Shown in pieces: positions 28,198 through 62,372 of a DNA stretch of 64,000 bases. A model generated the notes under the pieces. It had not been told where the DNA came from. It searched no databases and saw nothing but the letters and a program-made list of their open reading frames with translations. The stretch is from assembly GCA_024641085.1 (NCBI GenBank), contig JAHEDT010000004.1:37215-101214 (forward strand), given 5' to 3'. A program made the position numbers and the translations under genes. This DNA is from Geobacteraceae bacterium. Its GTDB lineage: Bacteria; Desulfobacterota; Desulfuromonadia; Desulfuromonadales; BM103. Within the stretch, counting starts at the first letter, position 1. Each line of letters opens with the position of its first letter.

Positions 28198-28225
28198 ATG
28201 GTGGAAAAATGGACGGCCCTGCAAC

Positions 28226-28348
28226 TTGCCACGAAGGCACGAATACATCAAAAAGGACACTATTCAGGGATATGATCGATTGATCAGACCAAGCAAGGGG
28301 GGCGCTTGCTAAGCAATACCAGTGATGGCTTGGTGACTTAGTGGCGAA
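28226..28348. repeat. Short element with imperfect terminal inverted repeats (copy 1)
   Basis: Lies between convergent lptG and ahcY. The left end (28226-28243, TTGCCACGAAGGCACGAA) and the complement of the right end (28329-28348, TTCGCCACTAAGTCACCAAG) match at most positions. The 85-bp interior has no frame. No transposase or clear target duplication is seen. Such MITE-like ends with a CACGAAGGCACGAA character recur in other bacterial genomes. Confidence 0.5.
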
Positions 28349-28372
28349 CCTTTGTTTTGGTTATAAGTCCGT

Positions 28373-28403
28373 AAAAAAAAGGGGGCCATAAAAACGGCCC
28401 CCT
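28373..28403 (-). terminator. Rho-independent terminator after ahcY
   Basis: An 8-bp stem AGGGGGCC/GGCCCCCT (28380-28387 with 28396-28403) is followed on the minus strand by eight T residues. It starts about 30 bp past the ahcY stop. Confidence 0.92.
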
Positions 28404-50593: not shown

Positions 50594-50680
50594 GATGGTC
50601 AACCTCCGAAGTCAGTCTTAAGATAAGCGGCAGGGCCTCGGGCCGGCAACCCAAACGAAGGCAAAAAGCTTAAACCATTC

Positions 50681-50783
50681 ACTCACGCAGAGACCAGGAG
50701 ATACAGAGAGAAATGCCAAGCCCATGATATTTATAAGATTTATGAACTTTCCCGCTGAGACCTTAGCGCCTCTGCGTTAAAGC
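50681..50783. repeat. Short element with imperfect terminal inverted repeats (copy 2)
   Basis: Lies between the NMO-type gene and kdsB. The left end has ACGCAGAGACCAGGAGATAC and the right end reads AACGCAGAGGCGCTAAGGTC on the other strand. The two ends resemble copy 3 (60897-60992). No frame and no target duplication are evident. Confidence 0.5.
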
Positions 50784-50828
50784 TTTATTCAGGTTATAGA
50801 AGCATGAATAATCCAGGGTCAGAACCCT

Positions 50829-52074: not shown

Positions 52075-52161
52075 TGGTACCCGGGACGAGAATCGAACTC
52101 GTACAGGATTGCTCCCGAGGGATTTTAAGTCCCTTGCGTCTACCAGTTCCGCCACCCGGGC
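52075..52161 (-). tRNA. tRNA-Leu (anticodon UAA)
   Basis: An 87-nt type II tRNA on the minus strand with encoded CCA. The acceptor stem pairs GCCCGGG with CCCGGGT (one G-U). The D-arm has TGGTAGACGC, the anticodon stem AGGGA/TCCCT encloses CTTAAAA (anticodon TAA), the long variable arm is CGGGAGCAATCCTG-like, and the T-arm carries GTTCGATTC. The long variable arm and discriminator A fit leucine. Confidence 0.97.
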
Positions 52162-59460: not shown

Positions 59461-60540
59461 TCAGGTTAAGAGCTCGTCCAGGTATTTCTCCAGGTCACTG
59501 ACCTGGTGCAATTCGGCGGATCCTATTCCGTGGTTCAAAACCAGCCTGACCGCACCATCCTTAACCTTTTTGTCCCTTTGCATGACACCGAGATAATCAG
59601 CGACGGTGTAATCAGGCGGCGTAACCGGCAGTTCAAAATAAGTCAGCAGATTGACAATTCTTTCAACATCCTCAACCGAACAGCAGCCAAGCCGCTGCGA
59701 GGTATGCGCAGCCATGACCATGCCTATGGCCACGGCTTCCCCATGCTTGACGACGCCGTATCCGGCAAGGGTTTCAACGGCATGGCCATATGTATGGCCG
59801 AGATTGAGGAGTACCCGTAATCCCTGCTCTTTTTCGTCATTTTCTACAACATTCGCTTTGATTTGGCAAGACATCATTACAGCATGAACCAGAGCCTCAG
59901 CAGATCGATCCGCAAGCCGGTCGCGATGGTCTTCCAGCCATTTGAAGAATTCCGGGTCATGGATGATTCCATACTTGATGACCTCCGCGAGACCTGAAGC
60001 GTACTCTCTCTGCGGCAGGGTTGCCAAGGCGTTGACATCGATATGAACATGTTTCGGCTGATAAAAGGAGCCGATCAGGTTCTTGCCCTGGGGGTGGTTG
60101 ACGCCGGTCTTGCCGCCGATGGAGCTATCCACCTGGGCGAGCAGGGTGGTCGGCACCTGGACAAACGGAACCCCCCGCAGAAAGGTGGCCGCGGCAAAAC
60201 CCGTCAGATCACCGATCACGCCGCCACCCAGGGCGATCAAGCCACAGTAGCGATCGAACTTCCGGTCGATCAGCACATCGTAGATATCTTCCAGGGTAGC
60301 AATCGTCTTGTACTCTTCGCCGTCCGGAACCTGGATAACGCTGACCTGGCGTCCGGAGATTACCAGCGCATCCACCAGTTGGTCACAGTACAGCTCGCCG
60401 ATATTCGGATTCGTGACGATGGCCACCTTGTTGGGGAAATCGACCTCCTGAAGGGCGGTCCCGATGGCCGGGAAGATGTTCTCGCCGATCCAGATCGGAT
60501 AACTGCGCTCACCAAGTCCGACATACATTCTCTCTGTCAT
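59461..60540 (-). CDS. aroB: 3-dehydroquinate synthase
   Basis: Encodes 359 residues. It closes DAHP to 3-dehydroquinate in the shikimate pathway. GLIALGGGVIGDLTGFAAAT, VPTTLLAQVDSSIGGKTGVN and the metal-binding NLGHTYGHAVETLAGYGVVK are diagnostic. The ATG at 60540 is followed by another four codons later; neither has a strong ribosome site. It heads the aroB-TPR-roadblock unit, and its chorismate product serves mqnA. Confidence 0.95.
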   Translation of the reverse strand: MTERMYVGLGERSYPIWIGENIFPAIGTALQEVDFPNKVAIVTNPNIGELYCDQLVDALVISGRQVSVIQVPDGEEYKTIATLEDIYDVLIDRKFDRYCGLIALGGGVIGDLTGFAAATFLRGVPFVQVPTTLLAQVDSSIGGKTGVNHPQGKNLIGSFYQPKHVHIDVNALATLPQREYASGLAEVIKYGIIHDPEFFKWLEDHRDRLADRSAEALVHAVMMSCQIKANVVENDEKEQGLRVLLNLGHTYGHAVETLAGYGVVKHGEAVAIGMVMAAHTSQRLGCCSVEDVERIVNLLTYFELPVTPPDYTVADYLGVMQRDKKVKDGAVRLVLNHGIGSAELHQVSDLEKYLDELLT

Positions 60541-60896
60541 TCGGCAAAACTTTCTGCAATACGCAAATGAGACCCAAGACCCGCCATCCCCACGAGATGA
60601 CTTGCGATTGACACCGCTTTCCAGGTCTTTGGGCGGGGCCCGGGACGATCCTGCCTCGGGTCGAAAACTACTCTAACGCATCCGGTTCCCCGGACACAAG
60701 TTTGTCTTATGGCTTCGGTCAATTTATGGTGATATGAAGAGGTGTTCAGGTGCAGCACAGGAAGGGCTTAAGTCATTCAGGCCAAAGGTTCCCGCTTATC
60801 TTCATGGAGGACGGGATCGGCCGCACTGTCAGGGACCTGGAGAGCTGAATGACACCGCAAACAGTTCAAAAAAAAGTAGCACCAGGACTTAAAATG
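60541..60896. other. Non-coding stretch upstream of aroB
   Basis: About 355 bp with no convincing gene, RNA or terminator. Short frames here lack start signals and family features. It may carry the aroB promoter, but I cannot name one with confidence. It borders the repeat element at 60897-60992. Confidence 0.4.
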
Positions 60897-60992
60897 CTTT
60901 AACGCAGAGACGCAAAGGTCGCAGAGGAAGAACTCTTTAAATCTTAAGAAAACTTCTCAACCTTGGCATTGTTCTCTGCGCCTTTGCGTTAG
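60897..60992. repeat. Short element with imperfect terminal inverted repeats (copy 3)
   Basis: The left end CTTTAACGCAGAGACGCAAA (60897-60916) matches the complement of the right end (CTAACGCAAAGGCGCAGAGA, 60972-60992) at most positions. The 55-bp interior is AT-rich and has no frame. The same end sequence is seen at copy 2 (50681-50783). Confidence 0.6.
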
Positions 60993-61109
60993 TCAATGGC
61001 CTAAGTTTTGTTGCGCCGGGGTTTGGGTTGCTGACAGGGGAAATACAGCACCGGGCGACGGATTTCCGGCGCTCGTGGATGTTAATACGAGACAAACCGG
61101 CCGGCCAAA

Positions 61110-61125
61110 GCGACCAGACGGTCGC
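61110..61125 (-). terminator. Weak terminator-like hairpin after the AEC permease gene
   Basis: Stem GCGACC/GGTCGC (61110-61115 with 61120-61125), 4-nt loop, followed on the minus strand by only TTTGG. It lies 15 bp past the permease stop. The stretch from 60993 to here has no other feature. Confidence 0.45.
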
Positions 61126-61139
61126 CACTCTGGCTGCAA

Positions 61140-62051
61140 TCAGGGGACCGGGTTCAGAAGGATGAACAGCGGGACCAAAAACAGCCCGATCAGCGTCGAA
61201 TAAGAGACAACGCTCGCGGCAAAATCCTTGTCCAGATTCTCCATGGTCGAAAAGATCAGGGTCGTGACGCCGGACGGTGCCGAGGCGCTGAGCAGCACGA
61301 TCACCTTGATGAGACCGTGCAGATCGAAGAGTTCAGCCAGCATGGTACCCAGCAGCAGCCCCATCAGCATCCTCAGGGCAATGACCGTGACCAGCGGTCC
61401 GTTCCTGCAGATCCGGGGATCGAAGTAGATGCCCAGCGACAGCATCATCAGCGGCGTGGTCATGCCGCCGAGAATTTTCAGGAATTCGATGCCGACCTCG
61501 GGCAGGTGCACCCCGGCCAGGTTGAATACCACGGCAATCGCCAGGGTTATCAGCGGTGAAGAGGCGAGAAATTTCTTGAGCAGGGCCAAGGAACTCTGGT
61601 TGCCGTCACTGCCGTAGCGGCAGGCAAGATAATAGACGAACGACAGCACCACTGCGGCATTACCGAAATCAAACAGGGTTGAGAACGCCATCCCTTCGGG
61701 ACCGTAGGCGGACAGAACAAACGGAAAGGTAAACCCGGTGTTCATGACGCTCGAACCGATGATGAACACCCCAAGGGTCGGCCGATCCAGTTGAAAGCGA
61801 CAGCCGACAGCATAGGCGACGCCACAGCTGGTGAAGTTGATCAGGCTGGCAATCAGCGGCAGCATCGCCACTTTGAGCGAAAGGTCGAGGCGTGGCACGG
61901 AGAGCAGGATCAGGGCCGGCAATGCCACATGGAAGAACAGCTTTTGGAACAGATCGGCGTTGCTCTTACTGAAAAGCCCAATCCGGCGCAGCAGAAACCC
62001 GAGCAGGAAAGTCAGGACCACTGGAACGATTTTAAGCAACATAACAGACAT
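61140..62051 (-). CDS. AEC-family (auxin efflux carrier-type) permease
   Basis: Encodes 303 residues with ten predicted hydrophobic segments, arranged as two five-helix halves. LLKIVPVVLTFLLGFLLRRI at the N-terminus, GVFIIGSSVMNTGFTFPFVL in the first half and FLKILGGMTTPLMMLSLGIY in the second half are typical; the conserved Pro/Asn-containing breaks are visible. Members export or import small organic acids or malonate. Divergent neighbours (DapA-like lyase, GntR regulator) suggest a role with the lyase's substrate. The ATG at 62051 follows AAGGA; the frame runs 54 codons further upstream without support. Confidence 0.85.
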   Translation of the reverse strand: MSVMLLKIVPVVLTFLLGFLLRRIGLFSKSNADLFQKLFFHVALPALILLSVPRLDLSLKVAMLPLIASLINFTSCGVAYAVGCRFQLDRPTLGVFIIGSSVMNTGFTFPFVLSAYGPEGMAFSTLFDFGNAAVVLSFVYYLACRYGSDGNQSSLALLKKFLASSPLITLAIAVVFNLAGVHLPEVGIEFLKILGGMTTPLMMLSLGIYFDPRICRNGPLVTVIALRMLMGLLLGTMLAELFDLHGLIKVIVLLSASAPSGVTTLIFSTMENLDKDFAASVVSYSTLIGLFLVPLFILLNPVP

Positions 62052-62372
62052 GCCGGCCGGTTCCTTCTCGAAATTATCGACAGGGGGATCATCAGGTGAC
62101 AACGTTTCAGTGTCAAGCGGATTCCGGGATGCACAGGGGATACCGTCCTGGCAGAGGACGCAGGGCTGGCCTCCTTCACGCAATGTCGCTTCTCGACATA
62201 TGCATCCCAACACACTCTGCCCGCCCCCCCGATGCTTGCGTCATGGCACGTCTAGCACGGCTCTTCAGACAGCCTTCACCATGAGCAACGACCGTGTACT
62301 GAGAAAAACAAATTGCGCTTGCGCCACAACCAACATGTCAGTAATATGTCATTCATATATTGGAGGTACAAC
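62052..62372. promoter_or_regulatory. Divergent regulatory region of the AEC / DapA-like module
   Basis: About 320 bp separate the divergent genes. Near the DapA-like start, ATATGTCATTCATAT (about 62345-62359) is an inverted repeat with 5-bp arms, and ATGTCA occurs twice in direct orientation nearby, consistent with a GntR-type operator. A run of seven C at about 62222-62229 is the only other notable feature. The promoters themselves cannot be assigned with confidence. Confidence 0.4.

Follow-up and report, generated by a model that had tools for sequence, protein, structure and literature searches.

Gene-less repeats sharing inverted word arrays with GxxExxY cassettes point to a little-noticed class of mobile elements

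The repeat unit and its two families

Between two host genes in a 64,000-nucleotide stretch of Geobacteraceae DNA (the whole of which is called the window here) lies a short sequence with inverted ends. What kind of element is it, and by what means may its copies have come to lie between genes? A sequence-only reading of the window had marked positions 60897-60992 as one of three related units of 95-125 bp. The marked stretch turned out to be only the core of a unit of about 170 bp, which was located by a match to a profile (R1) at 60876..61039 on the plus strand (143.4 bits, model positions 1-172) and which we assign to family A. Two open frames on the minus strand, both of them host genes outside the unit, border it. 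The adjoining one, 59461..60540, we take from its sequence to be aroB-like (relatives were found by protein); the one on the other side, 61140..62213, is presumably, again from its sequence, a gene for an AEC-type transporter. The sole tRNA gene found in the window, tRNA-Leu (TAA), is located at 52075-52161.

The family A consensus is composed, in this order, of an outer end ACGGTTCTATAACC, a run of A, a left array, a core, a right array, a longer right arm and an inverted outer end. Its left array is AACGCAGAG GCGCAAAGG TCGCAGAGG and its right array, read on the other strand, is AACGCAAAG ACGCGGAG ACGCAGAG; the pair of octamer arrays inside the unit is thus inverted (ACGCAGAG/ACGCAAAG). Terminal inverted repeats are present in the family (consensus ACGGTTCTATAACC / ACGGGCCTATAACC) and degenerate in the window copy, where the alignment of copies places the left one at 60876..60889 (plus strand) and the right one at 61026..61039 (minus strand). 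The left array of the window copy, AACGCAGAG ACGCAAAGG TCGCAGAGG, occupies 60901..60927 on the plus strand. A core without strand (60928..60973) separates it from the right array at 60974..60990, which is inverted, reads AACGCAAAG GCGCAGAG on the minus strand and, by the alignment, has one octamer fewer than the family consensus. Mean column identity in the alignment is 77%, and some copies lack whole octamers, a kind of loss that fits units of some age built from tandem words. The ends of the marked stretch had been credited with about 17 matches in 20 positions, whereas we counted 15 of 20 in the best ungapped register and only 8 of 20 when the two ends as marked are compared directly. The AT-rich core, given as 55 bp, was nearly right in length at 56 bp between those ends, and is 61% A+T.

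The repeat is real and far above chance. A BLAST query covering window positions 60880-61010 (131 bp) matched 40 places in its own genome, an assembly of 151 contigs and 3.5 Mb. The other family A copy of the window, a unit at 50638..50805 on the minus strand (R1, 157.4 bits), matched 37. The covariance model R1, built on an alignment of 26 of the 33 copies, gave 62 matches in the genome at E<=1e-3 and 57 at >=46 bits; inside the window it found the two units already named. The whole-genome profile scan on which the first reading had staked its proposal thus bore out a family of intergenic units, while the hundreds per genome that it had foreseen shrank to dozens: 57 good copies, together with up to 38 matches of a sister family, in 3.5 Mb. 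Single octamers show no enrichment over the window: with at most one mismatch allowed, 61 were counted and 58 expected. What is special is only the arrayed and inverted form, not the octamer alone. Family A units are short and gene-less, have many copies and contain no conserved frame; 27 of 30 profile copies do not overlap coding-like frames and three do. A custom gene caller placed genes on either side of 28 of these 30, and the neighbours were co-directional in 19 cases, convergent in five and divergent in four. No preference for 3' ends of genes, a point that the first reading had proposed to check, is seen here, and a terminator or other 3'-end role was rejected, convergent neighbours not being favoured.

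The five bases adjoining the unit ends are 79-84% A+T, compared with 42% in the window. The left and right flanks of 27 of the 33 copies (the ends of the other six could not be placed, and these were left out) share a sum of 141 matches against 112 ± 6 (permutation p 1e-4). At least six flank bases are shared in 11 of the 27 against 2.4 expected (p 1e-4), and the clearest target duplication is 11 bp long. Target-site duplication in family A is a statistical signal only. A genome of the same genus gave no R1 match in the stretch upstream of aroB, in sequence too diverged to show the exact join.

Family B units have the outer ends of family A and arrays of the CACGAAG / CACCAAG type. One of them lies in the window at 28210..28382 on the plus strand, as judged from the sequence and from BLAST with a family B unit from another contig (L194, G000:C96:46264-46504; match at 28225-28382), a query that had 38 matches in its own genome. 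This is probably the third copy of the sequence-only reading, whose three members of one family within 64 kb would then be two of family A and one of its sister. The outer end has three more exact matches in the genome, and these lead to family B units with inner arrays of CACGAAG and CACCAAG type. Since both families have the same outer ends and other arrays, different arrays occur in one outer frame. It is common for a family A unit and a family B unit to adjoin or overlap end to end (G000 C4:46474-46998, C3:25134-25816 and C135:5708-6039), and such units look as if inserted next to or into each other. Outer ends, target duplications and the link to GxxExxY genes were all absent from the earlier reading.

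Arrays are associated and co-inherited with GxxExxY genes

Whether arrays of this kind go with the GxxExxY family was tested here. The genome of the window has one PF13366 match only, in a gene that lies between TTAACGCAAAGACGCAAAGGCGCAAAG arrays and their inverse; the enclosing words are AACGCAAAG ACGCAAAG GCGCAAAG and their inverse. Its product belongs to TIGR04256/PF13366 (PD-(D/E)XK_3, PDDEXK_3). The cassette (L196, G000:C125:3361-3711) fills a gap between two genes which we take, from their sequences, to be meaB-like and epimerase-like.

The GxxExxY family is present in 141 of 395 genomes of the phylum, and from this one phylum 90 loci with strong matches, not a random sample, were compiled (the 30 best matches and 60 chosen by hand). 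Octamer arrays lie within 400 bp of the gene at 51 of the 90 loci, against nine at a distance of 500-900 bp and 1.6 in shuffles. A forward array upstream is combined with an inverted one downstream at 40 of 90, a combination seen at 0 of 90 loci at 500-900 bp and never in shuffles. Most of the other loci show other words by eye (CGCAGATGAA, CACGGATT, CACAGAC, CACGAAA and ACAGGATG). With no motif assumed, the two flanks form an inverted repeat beyond the 99th percentile of shuffles in 76 of 86 loci (the remaining four of the 90 had short flanks), compared with 10% for mismatched flanks. Tandem periods of 8, 9 and 10 nt occurred in 9, 15 and 10 of 177 flanks and in none of the shuffles. The cassettes show a weak signal of target duplication (70 loci, p 0.006).

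In other phyla both arrays were found at the GxxExxY genes of Bernardetia and Bacteroides finegoldii, and at one of Sphingomonas parapaucimobilis that is located between fabD and fabG. The latter cassette (L289:1183-1611) is on a plasmid and splits fabD-fabG, with 33 and 2 bases to the annotated neighbour frames. The Treponema gene has one word per side, and the stretches viewed from Gemmatirosa, Persicobacter and Prevotella contained no clear octamer array. Phage records gave no GxxExxY match, and viral contigs six pattern matches with no confirmed relative; carriage by phages was rejected on these searches. The active-site residues E28, D68, E78 and K80 are intact in 82-83 of 83 GxxExxY proteins. 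A sequence search retrieved no solved structure, and the structure model is poor (pLDDT 62); a fold search with this model gave no significant match, its top-ranked entries being PD-(D/E)XK nucleases such as lambda exonuclease.

The type of array, or flavour, was labelled by a rule of our own (the four bases after CRC) and placed on a tree of 83 of 99 proteins, 16 without a clear flavour having been dropped and the plasmid loci L291 and L292 not entered. With four flavour classes the tree requires 6 changes against a shuffled mean of 25.3, and 0 of 200 shuffles were as low. Eight finer classes require 14 changes, where shuffling gives a mean of 34 and a minimum of 31. Host family, in comparison, requires 59 changes against a shuffled mean of 66, and 13 of the 38 host-family labels contain more than one flavour class. 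Flavour thus follows the GxxExxY protein tree and not the host, and the arrays are accordingly part of what moves rather than of the host.

Array-rich genomes and GxxExxY genes also coincide. Across the 395 genomes, in counts transcribed by hand with per-genome totals under 5 set to 0, a PF13366 match is present in 75 of the 93 genomes rich in octamers and in 66 of the remaining 302 (odds ratio 15); for genomes rich in the decamer word the counts are 68 of 91, and 73 of 304 for the rest. Genomes with a sampled GxxExxY gene of A[AG]AG flavour have a median of 32 octamer arrays, where the others have 0 (Mann-Whitney p 2e-5). For [AG]GAT flavour and decamer arrays the two medians are 48 and 6 (p 6e-6). 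Both p-values are too small because related genomes are not independent. Three genomes of one host family (G194, G218 and G241) contain more than 400 matches each to the decamer word CRCRGAT; the richest octamer genome has 169.

The exact 20-mer of the left arm, TTTAACGCAGAGGCGCAAAG, was found in at least 117 stretches of the species collection and in at least 17 named phyla, where simple arithmetic from 257 billion bases gives a chance expectation of about 0.5 for the whole collection. Among the listed matches with full flanks, 63 of 115 have an inverted partner array within the following 250 bp; the control distance of 600-850 bp gave 1 of 115, and shuffles gave 1. The sequence between the arms varies from locus to locus, and R1 scored highest on these stretches (86-115 bits) in three records from deltaproteobacteria: L107, which is a Geobacteraceae bin, L113 and L096. 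The array pair is therefore widespread and the outer frame local.

A model for the unit and its rivals

We define a GxxExxY-array system as a GxxExxY gene with inverted arrays of 8-10 nt words on both sides, accompanied by many gene-less array pairs. Family A has inverted arrays of such a word; the genome contains a GxxExxY gene with the word of family A, and the PF13366 search found none with that of family B. Our preferred reading, to which we give a probability of roughly 55%, is that the window unit is a non-autonomous, gene-less member of this mobile system. Mobilisation by GxxExxY might be pictured as follows. The nuclease would recognise the word of its own arrays, acting perhaps as a multimer or on a hairpin extruded from the DNA, and cut at the array, and the break would be repaired or joined. 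DNA bounded by arrays, with or without a gene, would in this way be copied to new A/T-rich intergenic sites. Gene-less array pairs would then be non-autonomous passengers, much as in REPIN-RAYT systems though served by an unrelated enzyme, and the units described here would be old products, carried in a MITE-like frame with outer ends of its own. A nuclease that reads its own word in inverted arrays, cuts there and lets array-bounded DNA be copied to other places seems to us the most economical model, in which we infer both the recognition and the movement. Several observations stand against it. The 170-bp unit has its own outer ends and duplications outside the arrays, unlike the GxxExxY cassette of the same genome; the arrays of family B have no GxxExxY gene of matching word in the genome; and 18 of the 93 octamer-rich genomes have no PF13366 match.

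The chief competing account of the 170-bp unit as such invokes a conventional transposase that works on the outer ends. The unit would then be an ordinary MITE moved by way of its ACGGTTCTATAACC ends, the arrays would be passengers, left by an array element that once inserted into the MITE, or subterminal binding sites, and GxxExxY would be uninvolved. The outer inverted ends common to families A and B, with their different arrays, speak for this, as do duplications of about 6-11 bp and A/T-rich targets. However, a search of the genome, whose contigs are fragmentary, for a longer element with the exact end pattern found this pattern five times, and the sites viewed were gene-less units. Moreover, an ordinary MITE would leave unexplained why the same array words occur in 17 phyla and around GxxExxY genes, and we regard this account as possible though rather unlikely.

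It might also be thought that the arrays were there before the gene, as targets into which GxxExxY inserts in the manner of a homing-type gene, so that gene-less arrays would be empty targets. Gene-less arrays do far outnumber gene-bearing ones, and one site, the meaB-epimerase gap, is occupied by several GxxExxY lineages. We examined this site at 30 loci (L196 and L317-L345). A GxxExxY cassette is present in nine of them, with several sequence kinds and array words, and the gap looks like an insertion hot spot; one locus has 214 bp and no GxxExxY gene, and meaB was not found upstream in seven. The empty relatives, however, are plain gaps of 23-111 bp without arrays (12 of the 30 loci), and flavour follows the GxxExxY protein from host to host. 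Both points indicate that arrays arrive with the gene, and we consider pre-existing targets improbable.

A hairpin that serves the host as terminator, mRNA stabiliser or regulatory site and has spread for its function is the least likely of these explanations, and very unlikely indeed: the copies are mostly intergenic and none of 200 dinucleotide shuffles folds as well as the core of the window copy (z -3.6), but in six copies folded as single-strand DNA the z-score ranges from this value down to 0, convergent gene ends are not preferred, the RNAalifold consensus of 26 copies amounts to -0.4 kcal/mol with no conserved fold, and Rfam gave no match at E<=1 over 60541-61139. The RNA structure contemplated in the first reading was not borne out, and an RNA element was rejected on the lack of a conserved fold, the z-scores reaching 0 and the absence of an Rfam match.

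Relation to known systems and wider meaning

Considered apart from the GxxExxY-array system to which it points, the window unit would be no more than an ordinary MITE-like repeat. Like a MITE it is about 170 bp long and gene-less, with inverted outer ends, target duplications and dozens of intergenic copies. It differs in that its inner octamer array pair is common to an unrelated gene cassette and to other phyla, and a search of the genome by the exact end pattern brought no parent element to light. Its tie to the GxxExxY family (TIGR04256 / PF13366 PDDEXK_3) is the family member enclosed by the same arrays in its own genome; the unit differs in carrying no gene. In having short tandem words between genes it resembles the STRR repeats, heptamers of heterocystous cyanobacteria, to which, as far as we know, no gene is attached.

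REPIN-RAYT systems usually have one or a few nuclease genes per genome and a repeat type that co-varies with the protein, and REPIN palindromes are tagged GTAG or CGTC, a tag named in the title of PMC3733652. In the GxxExxY-array system we found tandem words of 8-10 nt, which in the octamer arrays begin with TTTAACGC, instead of single palindromes with either tag, and the enzyme is of the PD-(D/E)XK_3 type (PF13366) rather than an HUH-type TnpA-REP. The likeness lies in the pairing of a flanked nuclease gene with many gene-less intergenic repeats: REPIN-RAYT (TnpA-REP) systems, too, have a nuclease gene with inverted palindromic repeats on its two sides, together with many gene-less repeat pairs (PMC8049555, PMC8266576, PMC3733652).

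One of the 30 meaB-epimerase loci, from genome G425, carries another gene where its relatives hold GxxExxY. It is an S23 four-helix-bundle gene (PF05635; L333:950-1318) enclosed by inverted ACAGAATA-like arrays, and its product has weak similarity to bAvd. When this gene and eight plasmid S23 genes were compared with shuffles, the flanking inverted repeat exceeded all 200 in five of the nine; the four that did not exceed them are from related Nostocales plasmids. Three plasmid S23 genes (L350, L351 and L352) lie between cas genes with short-word repeats around them, the neighbours being cas10 and a cmr3-like gene once and cas6 and cas4 twice. S23 is the gene of 23S rRNA intervening sequences, which are likewise a small gene enclosed by inverted repeats (PMC4990558). 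They differ from GxxExxY cassettes in the protein and the array words, and a location in rRNA was not seen among our loci. S23 as a second cargo of the same array architecture is possible, a lead and not a finding.

The open-licence PMC full texts searched contained no description of arrays around GxxExxY genes or of these repeats. Gene-less repeats that share the arrays of GxxExxY cassettes point to a little-noticed class of mobile elements. It is quite conceivable, though we would stop short of calling it probable, that inverted intergenic runs of short words such as CGCAGAG, CACAGAG, CACGAAG, CGCAGATGAA and CACGGAT in at least 17 phyla all derive from one such class, either as its ends or as its offspring without a gene. 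Each GxxExxY lineage would read its own word, and the S23 gene that intervening sequences of 23S rRNA contain would be another cargo of this architecture. If this is true, the intervening sequences would gain a class to belong to, and very common unexplained intergenic repeats would be tied to a protein family known only by the name of a motif. The natural pairs of protein and DNA word might then allow the recognition code of a nuclease of about 125 residues to be read. A testable explanation would also be at hand for repeats that are otherwise masked or passed over in the genomes of environmental bacteria, and perhaps for rRNA intervening sequences too.
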